This document shows positions 1-11,745 of a DNA stretch of 12,007 nt, one piece after another. The DNA lies in assembly GCA_002494215.1 (NCBI GenBank), contig DLBF01000093.1:1-12007 (forward strand), given 5' to 3'. A model generated the notes under the pieces. That model was not told the DNA's origin. It saw only the letters and a program-made list of their open reading frames with translations, and did no database searches. The translations under genes and the position numbers were made by a program. Source of the DNA: Prevotellaceae bacterium UBA7028 (GTDB lineage Bacteria; Bacteroidota; Bacteroidia; Bacteroidales; Bacteroidaceae). The first letter of the stretch is position 1. Each line of letters opens with the position of its first letter.

Positions 1-1704
1 CAGATCAAGGTGGCTCAGGGTGCAAAACCCGGTGAAGGCGGTCAGTTGCCCGGCTTCAAAGTAAACGATATCATCGCCAAGACACGTAACGCCATCCCCG
101 GAATCTCATTAATCTCACCTCCACCTCATCACGACATCTACAGTATCGAGGATTTGGCACAGCTTATCTTCGACCTGAAGAATATCAATCCCGCAGCAGC
201 CGTCAGCGTGAAACTGGTAGCCGAGAGCGGTGTAGGAACCATCGCCGCCGGTGTAGCCAAGGCTAAGGCCGATCTGATTGTCATCTCTGGTGCTGAGGGT
301 GGTACAGGTGCCAGCCCCGCCAGCAGTATGCGCTTTGCCGGTATCTCTCCCGAGATTGGTCTGGCCGAGACACAACAGACATTGGTGATGAACGGACTGC
401 GTAATCAGGTTCGCCTGCAGACCGACGGTCAGCTGAAGACCGCCAAGGATGTCATCATCATGGCCATGCTGGGAGCGGACGAGTTCTCATTCGGAACGCT
501 GCCCCTGATCGTATTGGGCTGCGTCATGATGCGTAAGTGTAACACCAACACCTGCCCCGTGGGTGTAGCTACACAGGACGAACGCCTTAGAGCCCGTTTC
601 ATGGGACGTGCCGAATATGTTGTAAACTTCTTCACCTTCCTGTCAGAACAGGTTAGGGAATACTTGTCAGAAATTGGTGTTCACAGCCTCAAGGAGATCA
701 TTGGACACACCGAATTGATCATTCGAAATGAAGAATTAAAAGTGAAGAGTGAAGAATCTTCCGCTGCGCAGAAGTGGGCAACCATCGATTTTGGCCGTCT
801 GCTGTACAAGCCCGAAACAGACAAAGCCCTGTACTGGGACCGTGGTGCATACACCAAAGTAACAGGCGTGAAGGACGAGGAGATAATCGCTGCTTCTCAG
901 AAGGCAATAGATAATCAGGAGGAAGTCACTCTGGACTTCGCCATCAAGAACACAGACCGTGCAGCCTGCACCATGCTCTCAGGCGCTATTGCCAGCAAGT
1001 ACGGCGAAGCAGGTTTGCCCGACAACACCATCAACATCAAGTTCAAAGGTTCTGCCGGACAGTCGTTTGGTGCCTTTGCCGTTCGCGGTCTGAACCTGCG
1101 TCTGGAAGGCGAAACCAACGATTACTTCGGAAAGGGTCTTTCCGGCGGTCGAATCAGTATTCTGCCTCCCGCAAGAAGAGACGCCAACTTCCATGCCGAG
1201 GACAACATCATTGCCGGTAACACAGGTTTATACGGAGCCACCAGCGGCGAACTGTATGTAAACGGTCGTGTAGGTGAGCGTTTTGCTGTACGAAACTCTG
1301 GCGCCATCGCTGTTGTAGAGGGTGCAGGCGATCATTGTTGCGAGTACATGACAGGCGGTCGTGTGGTTGTACTGGGTAAGACTGGACGTAACTTTGCCGC
1401 TGGTATGAGTGGTGGTGTAGCATACGTTTATGACCCCGACCACACCTTCGACTACTTCTGTAACATGGATATGGTAGAGATCAATCTGGTGGAGGAAGCT
1501 TCACACCGCAAGGAACTGCTGGAACTTATCCGTCAGCACTATCTGCACACAGGCTCTGCATTAGCCGGACGCATGCTGGACGACTGGAATCGTCACGTCG
1601 AGGACTTCATCCAGGTTGTCCCCATCGAATACAAGCGCGTTCTGCAGGAAGAGCAGATGGCCCGCCTGCACGAGAAGATCGCAGATATCCAGAGAGACTA
1701 TTAA
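1..1704 (+). CDS. gltB: Glutamate synthase large subunit, C-terminal part (5' truncated by window)
   Basis: This is the large (alpha) subunit of glutamate synthase, which with GltD makes glutamate from 2-oxoglutarate and glutamine-derived ammonia in the cytoplasm. The frame is open from base 1, so 567 codons of the C-terminal part are present and the glutaminase domain lies outside the window. The first residues carry the family motif AQGAKPGEGGQLPG of the FMN/synthase domain. The 3Fe-4S ligands are visible as C-x5-C-x4-C at codons 174, 180 and 185 (GCVMMRKCNTNTCPVG). The Gly-rich C-terminal beta-helix domain runs from about codon 344 to 480 (GSAGQSFGAFAVRGLN, TGGRVVVLGKTGRNFAAGMSGG). Oddity: codons 243-253, in the linker between the two domains, are encoded by a heptanucleotide repeat (separate entry) and look like an in-frame insertion. 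gltD follows after 30 bp, so the two are probably one operon. Confidence 0.96.
   Translation, partial: QIKVAQGAKPGEGGQLPGFKVNDIIAKTRNAIPGISLISPPPHHDIYSIEDLAQLIFDLKNINPAAAVSVKLVAESGVGTIAAGVAKAKADLIVISGAEGGTGASPASSMRFAGISPEIGLAETQQTLVMNGLRNQVRLQTDGQLKTAKDVIIMAMLGADEFSFGTLPLIVLGCVMMRKCNTNTCPVGVATQDERLRARFMGRAEYVVNFFTFLSEQVREYLSEIGVHSLKEIIGHTELIIRNEELKVKSEESSAAQKWATIDFGRLLYKPETDKALYWDRGAYTKVTGVKDEEIIAASQKAIDNQEEVTLDFAIKNTDRAACTMLSGAIASKYGEAGLPDNTINIKFKGSAGQSFGAFAVRGLNLRLEGETNDYFGKGLSGGRISILPPARRDANFHAEDNIIAGNTGLYGATSGELYVNGRVGERFAVRNSGAIAVVEGAGDHCCEYMTGGRVVVLGKTGRNFAAGMSGGVAYVYDPDHTFDYFCNMDMVEINLVEEASHRKELLELIRQHYLHTGSALAGRMLDDWNRHVEDFIQVVPIEYKRVLQEEQMARLHEKIADIQRDY
727..758 (+). repeat. In-frame heptanucleotide half-element inside gltB
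   Basis: These 32 bases read as 7-bp units AATGAAG, AATTAAA, AGTGAAG, AGTGAAG plus AATC. They match the left arm of the element in gltD (2371-2402) with 3 differences in 32. They are translated in-frame as NEELKVKSEES. The right arm seen in gltD and in the regulator gene is missing here, so this may be a decayed or partial copy. Confidence 0.8.
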
Positions 1705-1734: not shown

Positions 1735-3135
1735 ATGGGAAATCCAAAAGCATTTCTGACAGTGCCTCGTAAAGAGGCCGGATACCGCCCCGTTCACGAT
1801 CGTATCCATGACTTTGGCGAGGTGGAACAGACATTAAATACAAAAGACAGACAGGAACAGGCCTCACGTTGTATGGATTGCGGCGTACCTTTCTGCCATT
1901 GGGCTTGTCCATTGGGCAATAAGGACCCAGAATGGAATGACGCCCTCTATCACGGAGAGTGGGAAAACGCATATAAACTGCTGAAGAAGACCAATCCCTT
2001 CCCCGAGTTCACAGGACGCATCTGTCCTGCGCTGTGCGAGAAAGCCTGTATCTTGTATCACACTACTGGCGAAGCCGTTACCAACCGCGAGAACGAGGCT
2101 GCTATTGCCGAGCGTGCTTTCCTGGAAGGTTATGTAACCATTGAGAAGCCCGTGCGCAACGGGAAAAAGGTTGCCGTTATTGGAGCTGGTCCTGCAGGAC
2201 TGGCTGCTGCCAACGAGCTGAACCTGATGGGATACAGCGTTACAGTATTTGAGAAGAACGAAGCTGCCGGCGGACTCCTCCGCTATGGCATCCCCAACTT
2301 CAAGCTTAACAAAACCGTCATCGACCGTCGCATCAGCGTCATGGAACAGGAAGGGGTAGAGTTCCGTTATAATGAAGAATTAATAATGAAGAATGAAGAA
2401 TCGTCTGTAGATGGTACGGCGGTAGCCAACTCTTCACTCTTCACTCTTCACTCTTCACTTAAAGATTACGATGCCATCGTAATTGCCACCGGTACACCCA
2501 CAGCTCGCGACCTCAAGGCTCCTGGCCGCGAACTGAAGGGCGTGCATCTGGCCCTCGAACTGCTCTCGCAGCAGAACCGTGTGCTGGCCGGCATGACATT
2601 CTCTGACGAGGAGCGCATCACCGCCAAGGGCAAGGACGTTCTTGTTATCGGTGGTGGCGACACGGGCTCTGACTGTATCGGAACAGCCCATCGCCAGGGA
2701 TGTAAGAGCGTCACTCAGATCGAGATTATGCCCAAACCACCCGTAGGCCACAACCCCAACACTCCTTGGCCCAACTGGCCCGTCATCCTGAAGACCACCA
2801 GCAGCCACGAGGAGGGTTGTACCCGTCGTTGGAACATTAACACCCTGGAGTTCATCGGTAAGAACGGAAAGGTTACTGGCGTAAAGGTTCAGCCAATTGA
2901 CTGGAAGCCCAATCCAGAAGGCGGCCGTCCCATCATGGTGGAAGCTGGTGAGCCTGAAATCATCAAGGCTGAACTCGTCCTGCTTGCTATGGGATTCCTG
3001 AAGCCTGAGCATCCCGAGTATCCCGCCAATGTCTTCGTTTGCGGTGATGCTGCCAACGGTGCCAGCCTGGTTGTCCGTGCCATAGCCAGCGGAAAGCAGA
3101 CGGCAGAGAAAGTCAATGCTTTCCTGAAAAAATAA
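1735..3135 (+). CDS. gltD: Glutamate synthase small subunit (NADPH-dependent)
   Basis: This is the beta subunit of glutamate synthase, a 466-residue FAD and Fe-S protein that passes electrons from NAD(P)H to GltB. The N-terminal cysteine clusters are clear: C46-x2-C49-x4-C54-x3-C58 and C97-x3-C101-x3-C105. The FAD-binding GxGxxG is GAGPAG at 150-155. The NAD(P)H-binding glycine motif is GGGDTG at 306-311, and the C-terminal FAD motif VFVCGDAANGASLVVRAI closes the protein. The start is the first ATG after gltB, with an A-rich upstream stretch, normal for this phylum. Oddity: residues 213-242, between the FAD and NAD(P)H motifs, come from a 90-bp palindromic repeat that keeps the frame. The family has a shorter variable segment at this place, so the element probably inserted there or replaced part of it. 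Flanking conserved motifs are intact, so the enzyme is likely functional. Confidence 0.96.
   Translation: MGNPKAFLTVPRKEAGYRPVHDRIHDFGEVEQTLNTKDRQEQASRCMDCGVPFCHWACPLGNKDPEWNDALYHGEWENAYKLLKKTNPFPEFTGRICPALCEKACILYHTTGEAVTNRENEAAIAERAFLEGYVTIEKPVRNGKKVAVIGAGPAGLAAANELNLMGYSVTVFEKNEAAGGLLRYGIPNFKLNKTVIDRRISVMEQEGVEFRYNEELIMKNEESSVDGTAVANSSLFTLHSSLKDYDAIVIATGTPTARDLKAPGRELKGVHLALELLSQQNRVLAGMTFSDEERITAKGKDVLVIGGGDTGSDCIGTAHRQGCKSVTQIEIMPKPPVGHNPNTPWPNWPVILKTTSSHEEGCTRRWNINTLEFIGKNGKVTGVKVQPIDWKPNPEGGRPIMVEAGEPEIIKAELVLLAMGFLKPEHPEYPANVFVCGDAANGASLVVRAIASGKQTAEKVNAFLKK
2371..2460 (+). repeat. 90-bp palindromic heptamer element, in-frame inside gltD
   Basis: The left arm (2371-2402) is AATGAAG, AATTAAT, AATGAAG, AATGAAG, AATC. 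A 28-bp centre containing GGCGGTAGC follows. The right arm (2431-2460) is four perfect TCTTCAC units plus TT. The arms are inverted repeats, with about 24 of 29 aligned positions able to pair. The element is exactly 30 codons and encodes NEELIMKNEESS, a short linker, then NSSLFTLHSSL. The right arm matches the copy in the regulator gene (3544-3573, opposite genomic strand) at 29 of 30 bases. Confidence 0.85.
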
Positions 3136-3143
3136 AGACCCGA

Positions 3144-3201
3144 CCCCCGCTCCAGGGGGGAGGGCTTAATTTTGAAATTTTAATTTATAAATTTTGAATT
3201 G
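3144..3201. other. GC-rich hairpin and degenerate 7-bp A/T array after gltD
   Basis: Directly after gltD a CCCCC (3144-3148) / GGGGG (from 3155) hairpin with a six-base loop is followed by TTAATTTT, which may help end gltBD transcription. From about 3168 to 3201 the sequence is A/T-rich with a loose 7-bp period (minus strand units such as TTCAATT, CAAAATT, TATAAAT, TAAAATT). It is probably a decayed relative of the other heptamer arrays. Confidence 0.4.
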
Positions 3202-3252
3202 AACACCCCTCCTAACGTCCCGCGATGCGGAAAGTTAGGAGGGGGTGTTTTG
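3202..3252. terminator. Bidirectional-type terminator hairpin between gltD and the regulator gene
   Basis: AACACCCCTCCTAAC (3202-3216) pairs with GTTAGGAGGGGGTGTT (3234-3249), a 15-bp stem with one extra G. The loop contains a small GC hairpin (CCGC/GCGG). TTTT follows on the plus strand. The right arm overlaps the last codons and stop of the minus-strand regulator gene. The placement between converging genes fits a shared transcription stop. Confidence 0.7.
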
Positions 3253-4362
3253 TTGAAACTTAGCTGGTGTCATGCCAGTATATTCGCGGAAAGTGCGGTG
3301 GAAATACTCGCGGCTGCTGAAGCCACAGTAGTTGGCAACGGTCTCTGTGGACCATTCCGGGTGTTCCTTCAGCACACGTTTCGCATCTTCTATGCGAAGC
3401 GGTGTTACCAAACCAGCCAAATTCTTGTATTCCGATTGCCTGAGCCACTCCTGTAGCTGTCTGCGTGTCACCTTCATCTGTTTCGACACCACGCTTAGCG
3501 TCAGGTTGTGCTCACGGTAGTACCCGTTGGAAATCCAGTTTTCAAGTGAAGAGTGAAGAGCGAAGAGTGAAGACCCAACTTGTGCAGGTGTGGCGGTAGC
3601 AAATTCTTCATTCTTCACTCTTAATTCTACATTCGACTCTGCTTCCTCTACCCTTACAATATTCTCACTTACGCCATAGGTGTACAGACTGATGGTGCTG
3701 TAGGCAATAGAGAAGAAATAGGTAATAGAGAATACCACCAAAAGTTTGCCTTCCAAGAAGATGACCAGCGGCACGAAGAAGGCCAGCACGGCCATTGTAC
3801 GCATACTCCATCCCATCCATCCGAAAAGGTCGTGGCGCTCACGGTCGAAATACTCATCCACCGCCAGCTCCAGCTTTTTGTATGCCTTGAATTGCATAAT
3901 AAAGATGTAGGTCTGCATCACCACGTAAAGCAATGCTCCTACGTATTCAGCCATTCGCAGGACTGGCGACCCTTGCCGGAAAGGTATGCCGTCCAGCAAT
4001 ATAGTACCTAATAATAATAAAATTGTGGATGCGCAGGCACCGCACACCAATCTCCATTCCTTCCTTCGGACAATGCCATGCCGCTGCACAAAAAGTATAG
4101 ACATACTGCAAAGCAGCGAGGCAGGTGTGAAAAACAGCAGATTGCAGAACACGGCTTGTGTCACCCCCATCTGCCGGAACCCGAAGATATATTGCAACAG
4201 AAACTGGATGGCTATCAGTCCCGTACCGACTGCCATCAGCCAACGTGCCTTGGTAAAACTGTTTCTGCGTTTAGAACGATTAGGGATACCTAACATCAGC
4301 ATCACCGACAACATCAACATTGTCAGCACACCACTTATCTGCATCTCACCAATCGAAATCAT
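3235..4362 (-). CDS. Membrane-embedded AraC-family transcriptional regulator
   Basis: This 375-residue protein has a hydrophobic N-terminal half with about seven predicted membrane spans (roughly 8-25, 41-61, 68-92, 106-124, 135-157, 186-204, 208-230). The C-terminal DNA-binding domain (about 275-372) holds two helix-turn-helix motifs. The second carries the AraC signature pattern STETVANYCGFSSREYFHRT then FREYTGMTPAKF. No periplasmic sensor or ligand domain is visible, so the membrane part itself is the likely sensor; the signal is unknown. The linker between membrane and DNA-binding parts (residues 246-273) is encoded by a palindromic repeat shared with gltD. The gene is divergent from the small membrane protein and surface protein at 4526-10790, and operator-like repeats lie between them, which suggests control of that operon and perhaps of itself. 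The ATG at 4362 is the first in frame; a second Met at residue 7 is an alternative start. Confidence 0.88.
   Translation of the reverse strand: MISIGEMQISGVLTMLMLSVMLMLGIPNRSKRRNSFTKARWLMAVGTGLIAIQFLLQYIFGFRQMGVTQAVFCNLLFFTPASLLCSMSILFVQRHGIVRRKEWRLVCGACASTILLLLGTILLDGIPFRQGSPVLRMAEYVGALLYVVMQTYIFIMQFKAYKKLELAVDEYFDRERHDLFGWMGWSMRTMAVLAFFVPLVIFLEGKLLVVFSITYFFSIAYSTISLYTYGVSENIVRVEEAESNVELRVKNEEFATATPAQVGSSLFALHSSLENWISNGYYREHNLTLSVVSKQMKVTRRQLQEWLRQSEYKNLAGLVTPLRIEDAKRVLKEHPEWSTETVANYCGFSSREYFHRTFREYTGMTPAKFQQNTPS
3544..3628 (-). repeat. 85-bp palindromic heptamer element, in-frame inside the regulator gene
   Basis: Read on the coding (minus) strand, the left arm (3628 down to 3603) is AGAATTAAGAGTGAAGAATG followed by AAGAAT. 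It differs from the gltD left arm at 2 of 26 bases. The right arm (3573 down to 3544) differs from the gltD right arm at 1 of 30 bases. The centre contains GGCGGTAGC on the plus strand, as the gltD centre does, so the core lies in the opposite orientation relative to the host gene. It encodes residues 246-273, with ELRVKNEEF at one end and SSLFALHSSL at the other. Confidence 0.85.
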
Positions 4363-4403
4363 GCGGCGAAATTACGAAGAAATGTTTGAACGAACAAAGA
4401 AAC

Positions 4404-4471
4404 TGTGAAAAAAACCGTATTTTTTCACACCTACCTCCTGTTTTTTCACACCAAGTACAGTTTTTTCACAC
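4404..4471. promoter_or_regulatory. Array of TTTTTTCACAC operator-like repeats in the divergent control region
   Basis: TTTTTTCACAC occurs exactly at 4420-4430, 4441-4451 and 4461-4471, with start-to-start distances of 21 and 20 bp (about two helical turns). An inverted copy, TGTGAAAAAAA, lies at 4404-4414 and forms a 10-bp-arm palindrome with the first copy. The last repeat abuts the -33 region of the plus-strand promoter. Direct half-sites about 21 bp apart are typical of AraC-family binding, so the neighbouring regulator is the obvious candidate ligand. The role is inferred; the repeats themselves are plain in the sequence. Confidence 0.75.
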
Positions 4472-4491
4472 TCACACATGCGCATATTCTT

Positions 4492-4499
4492 TATATTTG
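4492..4499 (+). promoter_or_regulatory. Bacteroidetes -7 promoter element for the 4526-11052 operon
   Basis: TATATTTG fits the Bacteroidetes -7 consensus TAnnTTTG exactly. The -33 zone about 20 bp upstream is the T-run of the third operator-like repeat rather than a clear TTTG, which suggests an activator-dependent promoter. The expected transcript start is near 4506, giving a leader of about 20 nt before the ATG at 4526. I found no other TAnnTTTG between 4500 and 4853 or between 10791 and 10881, so it may serve all three downstream genes. Confidence 0.6.
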
Positions 4500-4525
4500 C
4501 GTACCGAAATAAGCAAAAGCAAAAT

Positions 4526-4648
4526 ATGAACAACACCTATCAAGACTTTCTATCGCAGCCCCTATGGTTCACCATCCCTATGGTGCTAATTTACTTGGGA
4601 CTTATTGCTTTTATCATCTATTTTGTGTGGAAAAACAAGAAACAATAG
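4526..4648 (+). CDS. Small single-span membrane protein, 40 residues
   Basis: This short ORF encodes 40 residues beginning MNNTYQDFLSQPLWF. One hydrophobic span follows (about residues 14-35, containing VLIYLGLIAFIIYFVW) and the protein ends with the basic tail KNKKQ. The tail predicts a cytoplasmic C terminus with the N terminus outside. I do not recognise the family. Support for it being real: it starts about 20 nt after the predicted transcript start of an exact Bacteroidetes promoter, it has a well-formed transmembrane segment, and it lies first in a probable operon divergent from a membrane-bound regulator. It could be a partner of that regulator's membrane domain or an accessory subunit of an unknown membrane complex; neither can be told from the sequence. 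There is no Shine-Dalgarno, only an A-rich leader. Confidence 0.65.
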   Translation: MNNTYQDFLSQPLWFTIPMVLIYLGLIAFIIYFVWKNKKQ

Positions 4649-4649
4649 G

Positions 4650-4770
4650 CCCACCCCCTTCGGGACCCTCCGTCGCAAATGGGAATTCGCTCCCCTTTGT
4701 GGGGCCGTAGCCACATTCAGTGGCTGCTCTAAAGACCCCAGTCGCCCTCGCCGTGAGGGAGGGGAACTTG
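4650..4770. repeat. GC-rich stretch with three consecutive short hairpins
   Basis: After the 40-residue ORF come three stems, each with a five-base loop: CCCC-TTTGT-GGGG (4692-4704), AGCCAC-ATTCA-GTGGCT (4709-4725) and CCCTC-GCCGT-GAGGG (4745-4759). No ORF or promoter is visible. The base composition contrasts with the A-rich sequence around it and looks like a dispersed intergenic repeat. It would lie in the transcript between the small membrane protein and the surface protein, where it could attenuate or stabilise the message. Confidence 0.5.
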
Positions 4771-4776
4771 AAAGAA

Positions 4777-4847
4777 AAAAATGAGTAATAACAATTAAAT
4801 AAAATCCTGTCCCTAGTCCCCTCCCTCGGGAGGGCTGGGGAGGGGTC
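4777..4847 (+). repeat. 71-bp leader repeat, copy 1 (upstream of the surface-protein gene)
   Basis: This direct repeat matches 10804-10874 with 6 differences in 71 and no gaps. It runs from an A/T-rich half (AATAACAATTAAATAAAATC) into a GC-rich half with CCCCTCCC (4818-4825), GGGAGGG (4828-4834) and GGGGAGGGG (4837-4845). The last block contains GGAGG about 10 nt before the ATG at 4854 and can act as ribosome binding site. The C-rich block can pair either with GGGAGGG or with GGGGAGGGG, and the second pairing would mask the ribosome binding site. Confidence 0.85.
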
Positions 4848-4853
4848 TGAATT

Positions 4854-7800
4854 ATGAGTAAAAAGATTAACCAAGTCCTCGCGTTTGTGCTGACGATAGC
4901 GGCACTGTTGACGGGGCAGACGGCATGGGCCGACACAACGTGGTCTGTCGAGAATAACACAGGCAGCACGTTCCGTATCAAACGTAGCACTTCCGGTACC
5001 ACCGAGACAGTGAAGTATCGCACCGTGAACCTGAGTGCCTATGCTGGGCAGCACTACACCGCCAAGAGCGGTGAAGTCACTTTTGGGCCCACTGACACCT
5101 ACATAGATGTCACCGTCACGGAGAGGACTCCCGCAGCGGACGCCTACGCTTACAAATACCAGACGGGCACCAAACGCAAGTACCGCTTTGATGTCACCGA
5201 CCTGGGCGGCTTCCACCTGGCTCAATGTGACCGGGAAATCACTACCGGCACCAGCTTCAGCGGCAGCTATGTGAACAAGAGCGTCACCGATCTGGTGTAT
5301 TTCCAGAGCGGTAGCGTCAAGTCTGGCAGCGGCAATAAGTATCTCGATGTGGCTCACAGCGGCACCGACGGAACCGAGAAGAAAATTGATGACGGTTATG
5401 ACTATAACAACAATACCCTCTGTACTGTCAGCACCGATAATCTTTACGGTAGCAACAACAGCAGCCTGCGCACCTGGCTCAACAGTCTTAGTTACAAGAT
5501 GTACGCCACCGTTTATTTCCAGCAGCGCGAGGTGGACGACGGCTATCAGTACATCCAGATCCTGGCCGACAATGCTTCCACCTACGACGGCAAGGATGGT
5601 GATGGAAAGATTGACAACGGCCCCACGACATCGCTCTACAAGGCCGCCTTTATTCTCACCAAGAACGAGAACGTCTGCACAAGTTGGAAGTACCAGGCCT
5701 TCCCCCACAAAACCGACGACCACACCAGTTCAACGGAGTTCGACTACAGCGATAGCTACCTCTACGCCCAGGCCTTTAAGAGTAGCAGCTACCGCGCCAC
5801 CACCAGCGGTTCTCTGGTACTCGCTCCCACTGTAAACGACATCAATGTGCGCTTTGATGCCAACGGAAGCGGCGATGACACCTGGTATCTGAAGAACCTG
5901 AAGGTCCGCATGGCTCTGGTGGATACCAGCGCTCCCACCATACTCTCCAACAGCATAACCGTAGCTCCCGGCCGTTACTCCAAGGGAAACACCGTATATG
6001 TCTCTGTGGCATTTAACGAGATAGTAACTGTGACGGGCACACCGAAGCTTACCACTACATCCAATAACCACTGGGGCGACCTCAGCTATGTAGCTGGCAG
6101 CGGCAGCAACGTGCTGACCTTCAGCACCACGATTCCAGCCAATGCCACCGGCAGCCTTAATATCACCGGACTCACTGGCACTGTCGAAGACCTGGCAGGC
6201 AACAGCTTCACAGGAAGCAGCGTCACAGCCACCAATCTTTGCTTCGTGGATGCCAACTACACCTACACTATCACTTACAACCTGGACGAAGGCAGCGTGG
6301 CTACGGCGAATCCCACCAGCTACACCTACGAGACAGACGCCATTACACTGACCAACCCCACCAGATTCGGCTACTACTTCAACGGCTGGACGGGCAGCAA
6401 CGGCAATACGCCGCAGACTACCGTCACCATCGCCAACCACAGCCACGGCAATAAGAGCTACACCGCCAACTGGATAAAGGCGTGGACCGGCAGCGGTACG
6501 CAGGGCGATCCCTACACCATCACCAGCTGGCAGGGCTTGGATCTGCTGGCGCAGTACGTGAACAGCGGCAACGACTGCTACGGCGTCTATTTCCAGCTGG
6601 GAGGCCCTATTGAATACTCTTACACCAACACATGGAACGTGGCCAGCGAAGAGAACAATTACACCGTCATCGGCACCAACGACACCCCCTTCCAGGGCAC
6701 CTTCGACGGCAATAATAATACTGTCAGCGGCATCCGCATCTATAAAGGCGGATCCAGCATGGACAACTACTACCAGGGCCTCTTCGGTACAGTCAGGAGC
6801 GGCGGCAAGGTAAAGCGCGTCAACCTCGCCGATACCCGAATCACTGGATATAACGATGTCGGCGGTATTGCGGGCCACGTTCTTACTGGAGCCACCATCG
6901 AGGACTGCACCGTAGCCGCCGACGTCTGCATCCACGCTGTACAGAGCACCGCCAACTACCACGGCGGCATCGTGGGCTTTAGCCAAAGCCCCATCAGCCG
7001 CTGCATCAGCCGCGCCACCCTCACCGTAGCAGACGCGTCCTACTGCAAGGACTTCGGCGGCATTGCGGGGTACAATAGCAATAACATCACCGACTGCATA
7101 GCCGATGGCGTTGTCATCCCCGACGTCAAAGGACGCGGCGCCATCGTCGGCTACTATATCGGCACCCTCACCCGCAACTACTACCGCGGCTGCACCGTGG
7201 CGGGCGTGGCGAATGCCACCGGCGCAGGCAAGGGCAATAGCGACACCACCACCGAGACCAGCGACGTCACCGGTGCCCAGCCTCTCTATGCCGTCACCCT
7301 GCCAGAGCATGTCTCGCTGGTGCGCAACGGCATCAATCTCCCCGGCACAGGCAATGCCACCTACACCACCGGTGCAGATATCGACGGCCAGTCCTACGCC
7401 TATGCTACGGCTACGCTACGCCTACGTTACGACGCAGCTTCATTACCCAGTGGTTATGACCTCTCGTCCATCACTGTTAAGTATACCTCAGGCAGTACGG
7501 TTGTTGATGTCACCAGCAATGGCGATTACACCTTCGATTTCACCATGCCCGATGCCGATGTCACCGTAACCCCCAATTTCCTGCCTTTGATTTCCTACAT
7601 CGATGCCGACGGTGTTGAGCAGAGCCACATGTGTACACCCATCACCACCAGCACATCCAGCACCATCAACTATGGCGATGCTGCCAATGCTGAAGGCTGG
7701 TACTGCGTGAATAGCGATGTGACCTTTGATAGCCAACAAATAATCTTCAACGATCAACAGGTGAACATCATCCTTTGCGACGGAGCAACGATGTCCGTCC

Positions 7801-10790
7801 AAAAAACAACACAATGTCCATTCAATGTAAATAACGGTTCCTTGGCCATTTATGGTCAGGCCCTCGGTACCGGCACTCTCACAGCCAACTCAAGAAATGG
7901 AAGAGCTATTTCCGCAAATGCCAATATCGACTTCAATGGCGGTACCATTATTGCCACCTCATCTTATTCCATTGGTATATGTGCTGATAACAACATCACA
8001 ATCCGCCGCGGCAACATAACCGCAAATGGAGGTTCCCTGAATGATTTCTGTGGTATCAAAGCCAGTGACACCATCACCCTGGGATGTCTCACAACTTTGG
8101 ATCGCATCTATTCCACAGGTTATAGTGGTACTGTGACTATAGCCGAAGGCCAGACGCTTACCGACGGTAACTCAGCCAACAACTACACCGGTACCCTCGA
8201 TGACAATCAGAAGGATGCTATTAAGAGAAAAACGATGATGAAGGCTCTGGGCGACGTCAGCTATATAGATGAGAACGGTCTGGAGCAGACCTGCACCAAC
8301 TATATAATTCTTTCCGATAATGTTTTCAATGGCATGACGCATAATATCGGAAAAACAGGTTATGATACCTGGTACGTTGCCTGCGGCAATTATACCTACA
8401 ATACTACTAATCTCCAAACTAACGGTTACGTACATCTTATATTATGCGATGGTGCTAATTTTACTGTCAACGGCAGTTCCTATGGTATTGAGGTCGGAAG
8501 TGTTCTCAGCATCTACAGCCAGAGTCAGGACACCGGCACGCTTACAGCCAATGTAGCGAGTGCGTCGGGTAGGGCTTTGTTTGTTTCTAGCGGCAACCTC
8601 GCTATCAATGGTGGTGTAATCAATGCAAATGGCGGCGCGTATGGCATCTATATCGACAATGGCCATCTGACAGTAAATCGCGCCACTATCAACGCTACCG
8701 GCACCACCAGTGACATCCACGTAGATGGCACCTTCACCCTGGGCTGGACCAGGCTCACCGACCGCATCTACACCAGCAGTTACAACTGTGAAGGCACCGT
8801 CAGCATCAAAGACGGCCAGACGTTCTGGAACGGCAGCGAGGGTCTGAGCGGCACCATTACCGATATGACCAAACTGAACAACAAGACACTGCGACCTTGC
8901 TTCAGCATCACGCTGCCGGACGGCATCACCGCCAGCGGCGTGTTGGGACAGGATGGCACCACCGCTTACGCACTGCCTGAGGCTACTGTTACCCTCTCAT
9001 CCTTGGCGGGCTACCATCTGGCTGATGTCACCGTGAATGGCAATGCCGCTACCGATAATGGCGACGGCACTTGGAGCTTCCAGATGCCTGCTACCAATAT
9101 CACCGTTACGGCAACTATCATCTCTGGTGGTTATTGCGGCTTTGCCAGCGTGAACAGTGGACAGAACGTAATATGGGCCTACAACCTCTCCACCACCACA
9201 CTCACCATTAGTCCCAATCCCGAAGCTATTGCTGGCGGAGAGACCAACTTCAACATGGCTGGCTATGACGAATCTAACCAGCCTTGGAATGACTATAAAG
9301 ACGTTCTCACTACCGTTGTCATCGATGCAGGCGTTACCAACATAGGCTCCAACGCCTTCTATGAATGTAGCAAACTGGAATCCATTACCCTGCCCGATGG
9401 CATCAACAGCATAGGTACCGGTGCTTTCTATGACTGCCAAGAACTGTCAGCCATCACCATCCCCGCCAGTGTGACCACCATTGACTACTGTGCTTTCGAA
9501 GATTGCTACAAGCTCGAGGCCGTCACCTTTGCCGCTGGCTCGCTGCTGACCAGCATAGGCAGCAGCGCCTTCTCTCTCTGCGATTCACTGTCAGCCATCA
9601 CCATCCCCGCCAGTGTGAGAAACATCGACTACAATGCTTTCCAGGAATGCTACAACCTCAAGACCGTCACCTTTGCCGCAGGCTCACAACTGACCAGCAT
9701 AGGCTCCAACGCCTTCTCTCTCTGCGATTCACTGTCAGCCATCACCATCCCCGAGCATGTGACGACCATTGGCGACAATGCCTTTGCAGAATGCCCCAGT
9801 CTCTCCACCATCATTGCCCTGCCAGCCACACCGCCAAGCTTAGGCTCTCCCATGGGGGTGCCTGGCAACAGAAACAACCATAACATCTACTTCCGCAACC
9901 ATAGCTACTGGACCGTGGACGGCTGGCGCAGATGTATTGAGGAGAACTCTCACGATTTCTTCGACCACGGCTATTTGCTCATGGACAAAGAAGCTAACGA
10001 CATCGCAGCCCTCTATACAGCCCTCCATGATGATGACCGCTATGCAGCCCTCCATAATGATGACCCCGAGGATGATGATCTTCCTTATAAGGATGCCCCC
10101 ATCGACAGCATCGTCAACGTCATGCTCTACGGCCGCACACTCTACAAGGACGGTGGCTGGAACACACTGTGCCTGCCGTTCGATGTCAAAGTGGGCAGTG
10201 GTCCCCTCGAAGATGCCACAGCCATGACGCTCGACGGTTCTACCTCCAACTTTGAGACCTCTACCGGTATACTGACACTCAACTTCACTGGCGTGACTTC
10301 GGGCAATACCATCACCGCAGGCACACCGTTCATCGTAAAATGGGAGAGCGGCGAGGACCTGGTGAACCCCAACTTCCGGCACGTGAGCTTCAGCAACAGC
10401 ACGAACGATGTGACCAGTGCAGACGGCAGGGTGCAGTTCAAGGGAACTTACAGTCCGATTGACTATGCCAGCAATAACCAAAGCATCCTCTTCCTTGGCA
10501 CTGGTAACAAGCTCTACTATCCGCAAGCAGGTGCCAACATCGGTTCCTGCCGCGCCTACTTCCAGCTCAATGGCAGCAACGAAGTCAAGGCGTTCAAGCT
10601 GAACTTCAACGAAGAGGACGATAACGCCGATGGAATCGGCTCAATTCAAAATTCAAAATTCAAAATTCAAAATGAGGATGCTGTTTACGACCTTTCGGGA
10701 AGAAAAATTAATTCTCAATTTTCAACTTTCAATTCTCAATTTAAAAAGAAGGGGATTTACATCATCAACGGCCGCAAGGTGCTTTATTAG
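4854..10790 (+). CDS. Giant mosaic secreted surface protein with BspA-type leucine-rich repeats
   Basis: This 1978-residue protein begins with a clear signal peptide (KK at 3-4, hydrophobic core, cut after AWA at 26). In order it shows: a Calx-beta-like stretch (about 28-90, HYTAKSGEVTFGP); an unassigned region; a bacterial Ig-like domain (about 359-460, VTVTGTPKL); an InlB B-type repeat (about 470-543, ITYNLDEG...GYYFNGWTG); GLUG-type repeats (about 615-750, VGGIAGH, FGGIAGYN); a divergent InlB-type domain (about 813-910); two tandem beta-helix modules starting YIDADGVEQ (about 915) and YIDENGLEQ (about 1138); another InlB-like domain (1345-1423); BspA-type leucine-rich repeats (1483-1666); an acidic stretch near 1730; a C-terminal beta domain; and the ending VYDLSGRK...GIYIINGRKVLY, which resembles type IX secretion sorting signatures. 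The likely role is adhesion or glycan binding at the cell surface; no catalytic motif is seen. The start has GGGGAGGGG upstream. The C terminus carries 7-bp arrays. Confidence 0.9.
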   Translation: MSKKINQVLAFVLTIAALLTGQTAWADTTWSVENNTGSTFRIKRSTSGTTETVKYRTVNLSAYAGQHYTAKSGEVTFGPTDTYIDVTVTERTPAADAYAYKYQTGTKRKYRFDVTDLGGFHLAQCDREITTGTSFSGSYVNKSVTDLVYFQSGSVKSGSGNKYLDVAHSGTDGTEKKIDDGYDYNNNTLCTVSTDNLYGSNNSSLRTWLNSLSYKMYATVYFQQREVDDGYQYIQILADNASTYDGKDGDGKIDNGPTTSLYKAAFILTKNENVCTSWKYQAFPHKTDDHTSSTEFDYSDSYLYAQAFKSSSYRATTSGSLVLAPTVNDINVRFDANGSGDDTWYLKNLKVRMALVDTSAPTILSNSITVAPGRYSKGNTVYVSVAFNEIVTVTGTPKLTTTSNNHWGDLSYVAGSGSNVLTFSTTIPANATGSLNITGLTGTVEDLAGNSFTGSSVTATNLCFVDANYTYTITYNLDEGSVATANPTSYTYETDAITLTNPTRFGYYFNGWTGSNGNTPQTTVTIANHSHGNKSYTANWIKAWTGSGTQGDPYTITSWQGLDLLAQYVNSGNDCYGVYFQLGGPIEYSYTNTWNVASEENNYTVIGTNDTPFQGTFDGNNNTVSGIRIYKGGSSMDNYYQGLFGTVRSGGKVKRVNLADTRITGYNDVGGIAGHVLTGATIEDCTVAADVCIHAVQSTANYHGGIVGFSQSPISRCISRATLTVADASYCKDFGGIAGYNSNNITDCIADGVVIPDVKGRGAIVGYYIGTLTRNYYRGCTVAGVANATGAGKGNSDTTTETSDVTGAQPLYAVTLPEHVSLVRNGINLPGTGNATYTTGADIDGQSYAYATATLRLRYDAASLPSGYDLSSITVKYTSGSTVVDVTSNGDYTFDFTMPDADVTVTPNFLPLISYIDADGVEQSHMCTPITTSTSSTINYGDAANAEGWYCVNSDVTFDSQQIIFNDQQVNIILCDGATMSVQKTTQCPFNVNNGSLAIYGQALGTGTLTANSRNGRAISANANIDFNGGTIIATSSYSIGICADNNITIRRGNITANGGSLNDFCGIKASDTITLGCLTTLDRIYSTGYSGTVTIAEGQTLTDGNSANNYTGTLDDNQKDAIKRKTMMKALGDVSYIDENGLEQTCTNYIILSDNVFNGMTHNIGKTGYDTWYVACGNYTYNTTNLQTNGYVHLILCDGANFTVNGSSYGIEVGSVLSIYSQSQDTGTLTANVASASGRALFVSSGNLAINGGVINANGGAYGIYIDNGHLTVNRATINATGTTSDIHVDGTFTLGWTRLTDRIYTSSYNCEGTVSIKDGQTFWNGSEGLSGTITDMTKLNNKTLRPCFSITLPDGITASGVLGQDGTTAYALPEATVTLSSLAGYHLADVTVNGNAATDNGDGTWSFQMPATNITVTATIISGGYCGFASVNSGQNVIWAYNLSTTTLTISPNPEAIAGGETNFNMAGYDESNQPWNDYKDVLTTVVIDAGVTNIGSNAFYECSKLESITLPDGINSIGTGAFYDCQELSAITIPASVTTIDYCAFEDCYKLEAVTFAAGSLLTSIGSSAFSLCDSLSAITIPASVRNIDYNAFQECYNLKTVTFAAGSQLTSIGSNAFSLCDSLSAITIPEHVTTIGDNAFAECPSLSTIIALPATPPSLGSPMGVPGNRNNHNIYFRNHSYWTVDGWRRCIEENSHDFFDHGYLLMDKEANDIAALYTALHDDDRYAALHNDDPEDDDLPYKDAPIDSIVNVMLYGRTLYKDGGWNTLCLPFDVKVGSGPLEDATAMTLDGSTSNFETSTGILTLNFTGVTSGNTITAGTPFIVKWESGEDLVNPNFRHVSFSNSTNDVTSADGRVQFKGTYSPIDYASNNQSILFLGTGNKLYYPQAGANIGSCRAYFQLNGSNEVKAFKLNFNEEDDNADGIGSIQNSKFKIQNEDAVYDLSGRKINSQFSTFNSQFKKKGIYIINGRKVLY
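9403..9830 (+). repeat. 144-bp tandem units encoding leucine-rich repeats
   Basis: The LRR region is built of 144-bp units (48 residues, two LRRs each). tgaccagcataggc recurs at 9547 and 9691, and a run of 44 identical bases (9566-9609 and 9710-9753) joins units two and three. The peptide pattern is LSAITIPASVTTIDYCAFED then AVTFAAGSLLTSIGSSAF. Such near-identity at DNA level points to recent duplication and a chance of copy-number variation. Confidence 0.75.
10642..10743 (+). repeat. Two 7-bp arrays in the sorting-type C terminus of the surface protein
   Basis: The first array (10642-10673) is a tandem of ATTCAAA units, translated SIQNSKFKIQNE. The second (about 10707-10743) has units AATTCTC, AATTTTC, AACTTTC, AATTCTC, translated INSQFSTFNSQFK. 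The second sits inside the C-terminal signature, splitting VYDLSGRK from KKGIYIINGRKVLY. The reading frame stays open. The 7-bp period is the same as in the gltB, gltD and regulator elements, although the unit sequence differs. Confidence 0.75.
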
Positions 10791-10803
10791 TGAAGAGTGA
10801 AAC

Positions 10804-10874
10804 AAAAATGAATAATAACAAATAAATAAAATCCTGTCCCTATCTCCCTCCCTCGGGAGGGATGGGGAGGGGTC
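10804..10874 (+). repeat. 71-bp leader repeat, copy 2 (upstream of the 56-residue peptide gene)
   Basis: This is the second copy of the 4777-4847 leader, with the same order: A/T-rich half, CTCCCTCC-CTCG-GGAGGG hairpin and GGGGAGGGG (10864-10872), ending 7 nt before the ATG at 10882. The two direct copies bracket the whole surface-protein gene, with start points 6027 bp apart. Just upstream (about 10792-10800) lies a short AGTGAAG AGTGAAA heptamer fragment. Confidence 0.85.
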
Positions 10875-10881
10875 ATCTATT

Positions 10882-11052
10882 ATGAAAAAAACATATAACA
10901 AGCCAGCAATCGTAGTTGTTAAGCTACAGGCAATGAGCATACTTTGTGAAAGTACAGTAACAAGCGTAGCAAGTAACGCAGATTTGGAATACGGTGGCGG
11001 CAGTAGCACAGCTGCAAGAACCCGCGAAAGCCTCTGGGACGAGGAGTGGTGA
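10882..11052 (+). CDS. Small conserved-looking peptide, 56 residues, C-terminal WDEEW
   Basis: This ORF encodes 56 residues. It begins MKKTYNKPAIVVVKLQAMSI, passes through a Ser/Thr-rich middle and a GGG motif (LEYGGGSSTAARTRE), and ends in the acidic-aromatic SLWDEEW. From memory, short proteins of this layout (MKKxYxKPxxxVVxL start, glycine pair, Arg-rich then acidic end) are frequent in Prevotella and usually annotated hypothetical; I cannot check this here. There is no convincing signal peptide or membrane span. It has the same 71-bp leader and ribosome binding site as the surface-protein gene immediately upstream, which argues that it is translated and co-regulated. The GG followed by a polar tail invites comparison with ribosomally made precursor peptides, but no maturation enzyme or exporter is in the window, so the function is unknown. 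Confidence 0.7.
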   Translation: MKKTYNKPAIVVVKLQAMSILCESTVTSVASNADLEYGGGSSTAARTRESLWDEEW

Positions 11053-11085
11053 ATAACCAGTCCCTACCCACTTTTCAACTTCCAC

Positions 11086-11206
11086 TGTCTGCTTCCAGTC
11101 TCCTCTTAAGCTCCTCCTAGCCTCGTTGCAGCCATATTGCAGCCATACTGCTGCCTTACTCATGAGTAAGGCTAGAGTAAGGCTGGAGTAAGGCAGGAAC
11201 GAGAGT
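11086..11206. repeat. 11-bp-periodic array forming an 82-bp imperfect palindrome
   Basis: From 11086 the sequence runs as eleven 11-bp units that drift gradually. Clear ones are AGCCTCGTTGC, AGCCATATTGC, AGCCATACTGC (11119-11151), then TGAGTAAGGCT, AGAGTAAGGCT, GGAGTAAGGCA (11163-11195). The two sets are inverted relative to each other about a perfect 20-bp palindrome, GCCTTACTCATGAGTAAGGC (11153-11172). Extended, 11122-11203 is an 82-bp inverted repeat with 32 of 41 positions paired. It lies in the likely 3' untranslated region of the 56-residue peptide gene. Confidence 0.8.
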
Positions 11207-11308
11207 GAAAGGTCTGAAGTGCAAATATGAGTTTGTGGGTTTGTGAGGTAAGGAAGTCCTCTCAACGAAATCCCGGACAACCGGAAAATCCTTCTTTTCT
11301 CCTAAATA

Positions 11309-11327
11309 TTTTTGCGATAAGCAAAAA
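11309..11327. other. Small A/T-rich hairpin
   Basis: TTTTTGC (11309-11315) and GCAAAAA (11321-11327) form a 7-bp stem with loop GATAA. There is no GC-rich core. It could contribute to termination in either direction, since A and T runs flank it, but it is weak alone. Confidence 0.35.
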
Positions 11328-11351
11328 AGTGGCCCACGCCTCATTTTACAG

Positions 11352-11394
11352 GTTGAGCCGGCTCGATTGATTAGTTGAGCCGGCTCAACTTTTT
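11352..11394 (+). terminator. Paired GAGCCGGCTC palindromes followed by T5: terminator or operator pair
   Basis: GTTGAGCCGGCTC (11352-11364) is repeated 23 bp downstream inside the perfect 18-bp palindrome AGTTGAGCCGGCTCAACT (11373-11390). The two copies can pair with each other over 13 bp with a 10-base loop, and a T5 run follows on the plus strand, so a strong intrinsic terminator for the upstream operon is the plainest reading. Two palindromes spaced about two helical turns apart could instead bind a dimeric regulator ahead of glnN. Confidence 0.55.
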
Positions 11395-11615
11395 GGCGGA
11401 CAGCCCAAGAAATTAGTTACAAACGGAATTATTTTGAAAAAAAGGTATTTCTTATACACCCCGCTTTCGTAAATTAAAACGGTATTCTGAATGGAAGTTA
11501 AATGAGAATATCCCCCTTAACTCACCAATTAGCCACCTTAATGCGAGGAAACGAGTCATAAAAATGACATATATCAACAAAATTACACAAAAATAAATCT
11601 TTTTGCTTTGAAATA
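11395..11615. other. A/T-rich intergenic stretch without recognised features
   Basis: Between the GAGCCGGCTC palindromes and the glnN promoter I see no credible ORF, RNA gene or repeat. The composition becomes strongly A/T-rich towards glnN. Confidence 0.5.
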
Positions 11616-11647
11616 TTTTGTTTCAATTACAAAATGTTGTAATTTTG
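11616..11647 (+). promoter_or_regulatory. Promoter of glnN (TTTTG-N19-TAATTTTG)
   Basis: TTTTG at 11616-11620 and TAATTTTG at 11640-11647 are separated by 19 bp, a full match to the Bacteroidetes sigma consensus. The expected start is near 11654, about 75 nt before the glnN ATG. The -7 box lies between inverted arms ATGTTG (11634-11639) and CAACAT (11648-11653), and a second inverted repeat, ATTACAA-AATG-TTGTAAT (11626-11643), overlaps it. Either could be an operator for nitrogen control. Confidence 0.75.
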
Positions 11648-11664
11648 CAACATCATTTACAAAG

Positions 11665-11745
11665 ATGACACAAAAACTAAAGAAAAATAGGCAAAAAGAT
11701 TTGTTATTAATCCAAAATCAAGCACAATTATGGCAAACGAATTGA
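11665..11745 (+). CDS. Possible glutamine-rich leader peptide overlapping the glnN start
   Basis: An ATG about 11 nt after the predicted glnN transcript start opens a 26-codon ORF, MTQKLKKNRQ onward, ending at a TGA at 11743-11745. The stop is 13 nt inside glnN in another frame. Six of 26 residues are Gln (all CAA) and three are Asn. The position suggests a possible upstream ORF coupled to glnN translation. The leader is A-rich, so CAA codons are expected by chance, and no Shine-Dalgarno is seen. It may not be translated. Confidence 0.25.
   Translation: MTQKLKKNRQKDLLLIQNQAQLWQTN

Follow-up and report, generated by a model that had tools for sequence, protein, structure and literature searches.

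Two unrelated genes in one stretch of Prevotellaceae DNA, gltD and the gene of an AraC-type regulator, carry closely similar segments in frame, which raises the question of what these segments are and how they came to lie inside proteins. We analysed the whole stretch of 12,007 nucleotides (hereafter the window) and compared it with L001 (RUG12069), whose GltD is 97% identical, and with 79 further Bacteroidales gltD loci, many of them from rumen and gut according to the record titles. The host genes and repeat features of the window are as follows.

10–1704, plus strand: gltB, C-terminal 564 aa, host gene
727–757, plus strand: single arm of the same family in gltB, peptide NEELKVKSEE
About 1705–1727: heptamer arm of another family
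1735–3135, plus strand: gltD, glutamate synthase small chain, host gene
2371–2401, plus strand: left arm of the gltD copy, TGAAGAR heptamers, peptide NEELIMKNEE
2402–2428, plus strand: loop of the gltD copy, with the core GCGGTAGCCA at 2419–2428 adjoining the right arm
2429–2460, minus strand: right arm of the gltD copy, CTCTTCA heptamers, peptide SSLFTLHSSL
3235–4362, minus strand: AraC-type HTH regulator, host gene
3544–3573, plus strand: arm of the regulator copy, the SSLFALHSSL side in the minus-strand frame
3574–3602, plus strand: loop of the regulator copy, with the core GCGGTAGCAA at 3593–3602
3603–3634, minus strand: arm of the regulator copy, the VELRVKNEE side in the minus-strand frame
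10642–10742, plus strand: heptamer arms of other families, TTCAAAA and TTCAACT/TTCTCAA type
10789–10801, plus strand: short arm fragment overlapping the stop codon of a 1978-aa frame

Each copy consists of two heptamer-built arms, inverse to each other, that flank a loop of 27–29 bases. Both copies lie in frame, as a preliminary description of this DNA had proposed; we place them at 2371–2459 in gltD and at 3544–3634 in the regulator (minus-strand frame 3235–4362). The arms at 727–757, about 1705–1727, 10642–10742 and 10789–10801 go beyond that description. In coding sense, the right arms of the two copies differ at 1 of 30 bases, exactly as first given, and the left arms at 3 of 31, where 2 of 26 had been claimed. 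The left arm in gltD has TTA in place of the TGA expected from the repeat unit, and the same replacement marks in-frame left arms of NEELRVKSEE type. Because the core GCGGTAGC stands on the same DNA strand in both copies and the two genes run in opposite directions, the element is oppositely oriented relative to the two frames. The loop is unconserved except for the core GCGGTAGCMAAY, which lies beside one arm in some copies. The inverse arms of the proposed inverted repeat are thus present, but the palindrome itself is weak: the best 28-mer within a copy pairs at 22 of 28 positions, against 18–21 in 40 simulated windows, and the palindromy of the in-gene copies alone is only just above chance. 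Upon RNA folding, the gltD and regulator copies gave z-scores of −3.8 and −4.1, better than all 200 shuffles.

The window also encodes a 1978-aa protein with BspA-type leucine-rich repeats, in which the arms at 10642–10742 flank YDLSGRKI on both sides. The N-terminal half of the regulator looks membrane-spanning by eye. Because gltD in L001 is followed by the next gene without the regulator or the 1978-aa protein in between (window 3136–11713 versus L001 3504–3694), a window stretch of a little over 8 kb without an L001 counterpart is, on this comparison, accessory. A GC-rich, palindrome-bearing leader is found in two 71-nt copies that are 92% alike (4777–4847 and 10804–10874), one just 5' of the frame at 4854 and the other just 5' of an ATG at ~10882. 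At 11122–11203, in the gap before the frame starting at ~11730, lies a spacer-less 41-nt inverted repeat that is 78% complementary and has a right arm built from 11-base units (GAGTAAGGCTG). No Rfam family reached its gathering score in the window, and a plasmid BLAST returned two short partial matches, from which no inference was taken.

The linker of GltD that holds the segment lies between MEQEG.. and YDA.. and could be excised from 76 of the 81 GltD sequences. These linkers range from short and plain to long and repeat-bearing: 35 are plain, 7 carry TGAAGAR, 7 ATTGACA heptamers, 2 TGTTCAA heptamers, 9 GC-rich repeats and 16 other long sequence, the GC-rich label being a loose pattern that wrongly takes in L045 (a chance match outside its linker), and L048, filed under the other long linkers, looking GC-rich. 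At least four unrelated repeat families are found in this one linker among the relatives. The segment is far from shared by all orthologues, with 7 of the 76 linkers classed as carriers, and the idea of one palindrome at these sites gives way to that of gene sites which hold unrelated repeat families in different relatives. On a GltD tree built with the linker removed, the linker classes require 30 changes, compared with a mean of 37.7 for shuffled labels, so the classes are partly inherited and partly turning over. The TGAAGAR class takes 6 changes for its 7 rows, the GC-rich class, as labelled, 9 changes for 9 rows, and the six-row clade that includes the window (97/95 support) holds four different linker classes. 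The strand of the core in gltD also differs between the window, L001 and L050 on the one hand and L004, L012 and L018 on the other. In the gltD linker of L039, another palindromic repeat (GGACGAAGTCC..) breaks up the TGTTCAA array known from L036, in what looks like a nested insertion. At the linker, three solved GltD chains in an alignment are 16 residues shorter (gap count by eye). With a mean pLDDT of 60, the AlphaFold model of GltD is of poor quality, and the low values of its insert 219–238 (below 50) fit a loop and prove little.

That such segments were created by the assembly of metagenome-assembled genomes (MAGs) is hardly credible. Nearly all loci do come from MAG or uncultured-isolate contigs, and L046, whose record title has neither MAG nor uncultured, contains only 2 arm-pattern matches. 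Against an artefact, the gltD element is present in both the window and L001, with a single difference between them, the frames stay open, and related in-frame copies are found in L002, L012, L018, L050 and others, under titles that name several projects.

An alignment of gltB from the fetched loci likewise revealed recurrent insertion sites. In the gltB linker at 720–771, the window has a TGAAGAR arm where L001 has an 85-bp stretch with a GC-rich inverted pair, and the DNA on both sides is 94–97% identical between them; the gltB–gltD spacer also differs, and the gltD linker is the same except for one base. In place of the native HDEAFKPAEINEFLPNNGQF at site 838, L010, L070 and L031 have GC-rich repeats, L066 and L144 the GCGGTAGCAAATTCTTC arm, L029 an AGTTGAC heptamer pair and L040 an unrelated palindrome. 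One gltB loop thus holds at least four unrelated repeat families among the relatives, and the same protein loops are used by unrelated families in both enzymes. The comparison with orthologues, which had been proposed as a way to map insertion edges and target duplications, yielded neither a clean empty site nor a target duplication: native linkers were replaced, not simply interrupted. We infer the mobility of the repeat from its distribution. In L010, the adjacent genes gltB and gltD contain five SLTP(N/G)PSPV(G/R)EG stretches.

Other proteins carry the repeats as well. Relatives of the regulator were found in 7 of 121 sampled genomes and are at most 37% identical (G001 has none); six of them, at 32–37% identity, are without the arms and vary in their linkers, so that the insertion edge in the regulator is unreadable. 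In L129 (twice), L186, L191 and L193, TTCACTC-side arms form the hydrophobic part of N-terminal segments that by eye look like signal peptides. Repeat-type peptides of several families stand 5' or 3' of YDLSGRK, which we take to be a T9SS-type C-terminal motif, in many of 51 loci. In a census of 13-mers with at least six copies, 2 of 272 and 23 of 241 ORFs from the stretches of G001 and G002, respectively, contained a repeat run, one of the 23 being a CRISPR-like artefact (L182 279–641, where ~35-bp repeats recur every 65 bp as in a CRISPR array). In L060 and L043, a GC-rich repeat lies in frame in VDAPYLW.. / SSW.FFDW.. frames, seemingly an aminotransferase gene; at that place L032 has NGMKSWEFF.

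The arm is dispersed far beyond these genes. The 20-mer TCTTCACTCTTCACTCTTCA, with up to two mismatches, gave 191, 160, 206, 186 and 88 matches in five related genomes, compared with 0–1 for a reversed-pattern control in the same genomes; one arm may yield several overlapping matches, so arms are fewer than matches. Arm stretches are shared far more than chance would allow, and some related genomes contain arms in abundance, where their absence would have spoken against a spreading element. In an order-wide sample, 23 of 149 genomes had any match to the arm pattern, at most 37 apart from G001 itself (reversed control: 0–20, with 20 in G294). Of 201 genomes sampled across the family, 21 contain core plus arm at no more than one mismatch, and the control gave a single match in total. 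The copy number of the repeat depends on the lineage.

We scanned 0.74 Mb (G001, G002 and the window) and found 64 arms, 50 of which are 24–39 bp long. Many begin AT/TCTTCA and end CACTT, and 8 come after an exact GCGGTAGCAAAT (count by eye). Among 60 placed arms, 30 are intergenic, 12 lie across an ORF edge and 18 lie within ORFs of at least 120 aa, of which 5 come from the window and at least one (L124) is doubtful. Such ORFs cover 89% of the stretches concerned, those of G002 and a few of G001 having been chosen around matches, and genes are therefore strongly avoided. In the stretches of G001 and G002, 23 of 54 arms contain TTAA units irrespective of where the arm lies, so the open, stop-free variant need not arise after insertion. 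Neighbouring arms no more than 120 bp apart are for the most part inverted pairs that face inward (left-right, LR) and show one pairing polarity, with LR 34, LL 8, RR 1 and RL 0 over all loci, and LR 14, LL 3, RR 1 and RL 0 (row count by eye) without L131–L170, which were mostly fetched for the core and supply many of the 34 LR rows; the scan used the TTCACTY unit, and the window's own gltD pair is below its threshold and outside the 34. Many arms are single and pairing is optional. The unit is thus an arm of ~30 bp built of heptamers, not a fixed 90-bp block, and what stands of the spreading element first proposed is a dispersed Bacteroidales repeat that lies in frame inside proteins, not a single spreading 90-bp palindrome.

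A search with the core recovered 22 distinct full palindromes in G160, G118, G132, G086 and G019, with the form (TGAAAAG)n-ATTTGCTACCGC-N ~28-GCGGTAGCAAAT-(TTTTCAC)n. They are bordered by an A-tract/T-tract and lie mostly outside open frames (by eye). Two of them were folded and are very stable, at −54 and −58 kcal/mol (z −11 and −14). Hence it might be argued that the repeats are functional RNA hairpins, bidirectional terminators or mRNA stabilisers, with the in-gene copies as by-products or regulatory hairpins. The tract borders and the stability of the folded palindromes speak for this, and 9 of 20 core-fetched loci lie between convergent open frames (raw count by eye), which fits a bidirectional terminator. 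We nevertheless consider it distinctly unlikely, given that the in-gene copies are degenerate and stand in mid-gene, and that none of the 30 intergenic TGAAGAR arms among the 60 placed from G001, G002 and the window was scored between convergent frames, 2 of the 30 having a neighbour on one side only. In L135, eight matches of a 46-bp unit, GCGGTAGCAAATTTTTCACTTATCACTTTTAC.., form two tandem groups at 1334–2671.

Heptamers also dominate the tandem repeats of these loci. A census of tandem runs counted 112 of period 7, compared with 0–17 for the other periods from 2 to 13, although heptamer matches were the reason for including 30 of the 111 loci, and the runs comprise many different unit sequences. 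Slippage in steps of 7 bp, together with hairpin template switching, could then have built palindromes in place at unconstrained linkers by local mutation only. The prominence of period 7, the many unit sequences and the matching of arms within genes described below agree with such an origin, and PMC4692102 reports a hypothesis that ties heptamers to polymerase slippage. We regard this origin as unlikely, because the same arm, with recurrent ends and partly the same core, is met again in unrelated genes as well as in intergenic DNA, and because a length of 24–39 bp in 50 of 64 arms is hardly expected of independent local events.

The two sides of a linker match each other within a gene. When the left half of each of 35 long gltD linkers was compared with the inverse of right halves, the fit to its own right half was 12.99 and the cross fit 6.74; in 26 de-duplicated long linkers, the values were 11.52 and 6.06 (p 5e-5). 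In 41 short linkers there was hardly any effect (4.73 versus 4.44, p 0.036). In these and the following permutation tests of arm matching, kinship was handled by de-duplication alone. Pairs of gltB sites behaved similarly. At alignment columns 512/601 of 69 gltB sequences, 56 have neither insert, 2 the right only, 1 the left only and 10 both (Fisher 2e-9); the own fit exceeds the cross fit with p 0.012–0.013 in two runs and p 0.048 after de-duplication (n = 8). At columns 1061/1178 of 73 sequences, the counts are 54, 1, 5 and 13 in the same order (Fisher 1e-9), and the own fit again exceeds the cross fit (p 5e-5 to 2.5e-4 in two runs; de-duplicated n = 11, p 1.5e-4). Columns 1352/1492 of 73 sequences (60, 1, 10 and 2) show no arm matching, the cross fit of 31.5 being above the own fit of 15.25 with two genomes that have both inserts. 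In gltD and at two of the gltB site pairs, an arm therefore fits its partner in the same gene better than it fits the arms of other genomes. At site 601, shared flanks suggest an old common insertion whose arms may later have changed type together. Around YDLSGRK, two-sided matching is absent in the 51 loci (own 6.90, cross 6.68, p 0.17), which limits a reading in terms of co-evolution.

The paired gltB arms bracket native sequence: L060 has inverse repeats matching at 39 of 39 bases and 92 bp apart, and L002 has 39-bp inverted repeats with 2 mismatches. Such long, near-perfect repeats around native sequence are what one would see if the arms were flipping sites of an invertible coding segment, but the enclosed segment keeps its native direction in the aligned gltB sequences and the gltD pair is short and imperfect, and we judge inversion highly improbable. 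Similar segments inside one ORF were inverted or direct in ratios of 9:2 at gaps of 20–60 bp, 8:7 at 60–150 bp, 1:7 at 150–300 bp and 0:5 at 300–650 bp, counts that include protein-domain repeats. Bracketing over longer range is therefore a feature of particular sites and reflects no general excess of inverted pairs. It is possible, with the balance tilted against it, that in-frame inverted arms repeatedly enclose coding segments in these bacteria and are actively held complementary, a change of repeat family in one arm being followed by the other, so that sites in gltB and gltD swap families as pairs. If true, conserved enzymes would undergo concerted evolution through copy-correction of hairpins or re-insertion in pairs, and new linkers and signal peptides would have a standing source.

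The reading that we prefer is that the segment is probably a copy of a non-autonomous, palindrome-forming dispersed repeat, similar to REP and RPE elements, of a rumen Bacteroidales lineage. Dispersal, pairing polarity and in-frame presence in unrelated proteins all belong to the observations above. Its unit would be an arm of ~30 bp with about four heptamers and recurrent ends, and the full hairpin element would consist of two inward-facing inverted arms with or without the inner core (ATTTGCTACCGC ... GCGGTAGCAAAT). Copies may spread without an enzyme of their own, through a separate enzyme or through copying of hairpin DNA. Selection would purge insertions in genes except in-frame, stop-free ones, which could be tolerated in flexible linkers, signal-peptide-like N-termini and C-terminal spacers. 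Template switching at the hairpin (quasipalindrome correction), or fresh insertion in pairs, might then keep the two arms similar. In a separate search for the Y1 tyrosine transposase (PF01797), none of six genomes, which may be incomplete, had a match over the cut-off and two had weak matches. A RAYT-driven REPIN cycle of the classical kind is thus unsupported, since no Y1 match rose above the cut-off in the six genomes.

Several known systems resemble this repeat. According to PMC3733652 and PMC2229807, RPEs are palindromic repeats, of which many lie in frame within protein-coding genes. Here, too, in-frame insertions lie in unrelated conserved proteins (gltD, gltB, the regulator and other ORFs), and palindromic repeats are also what Wolbachia palindromic elements have in common with ours, a likeness drawn, in the case of RPEs, from published descriptions. 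Unlike the RPE and Wolbachia elements, the present repeat belongs to a different lineage, is built of heptamers and shares its sites with several families. PMC3733652 also gives a CGTC end tag for R. conorii RPEs and mentions CGTC repeats in Bacteroidetes; here CGTC is unconserved, following the left arm in the window's gltD but not in L012, L018, L050 or the regulator. REPs inside genes are on record from several groups; in one case a single gene has received two insertions, and X. campestris and X. oryzae carry different REPs at nearly the same site of recB (PMC3733652). With REPs and REPINs our repeat shares a length of 20–40 bp, inverted doublets of one polarity within 120 bp and a location of some copies inside genes. 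By eye, the GC-rich family looks REP-like, with arms such as CCTCCCCCAAGGGGGAGG having a small hairpin of their own; in contrast, the TGAAGAR arm forms no stem by itself, in the two full copies that were folded the GTAG of GCGGTAGC falls within the paired stem rather than at its foot as in GTAG REPs, and a transposase of the RAYT type, as expected with REPINs, is missing above the cut-off in the six genomes.

Heptameric repeats of cyanobacteria go by the names STRR and small dispersed repeats. Tandem 7-bp units are over-represented in bacteria and spread between genes, are sometimes arranged as inverted pairs in Xanthomonas and are known in Nostoc and Calothrix, according to PMC4692102. Our arms share with such simple repeats the tandem 7-bp units and the dispersal, but they are mostly limited in length, have recurrent ends, lie in coding frames and keep one pairing polarity. 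Like MITEs, they are short, numerous and inverted at the ends and have no gene of their own; a MITE would further have a target duplication and a partner transposase, where our comparisons gave no clean empty site and the transposase search, which covered Y1, no match above the cut-off in six genomes. A limited literature search, with sources available in part, found no account of heptamer palindromes in Bacteroidales genes. Within the same limits, the heptamer-built arm appears new in this lineage, as do the way in which unrelated families reuse the same enzyme loops and the match between arms of one gene.

For annotators, these findings mean that stretches such as SSLFTLHSSL, NEELRVKSEE, NSQLSTFNSQL and SLTPNPSPVREG in genomes of this kind are likely repeat-derived and not signs of homology. 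Because unrelated families reuse loops of core enzymes in related species and arms fit within a gene at several sites, comparison can now test whether coding palindromes are passing junk or are maintained and copied through a definite process. Repeats that a reading frame tolerates give proteins a route to new linkers, secretion signals and C-terminal spacers.
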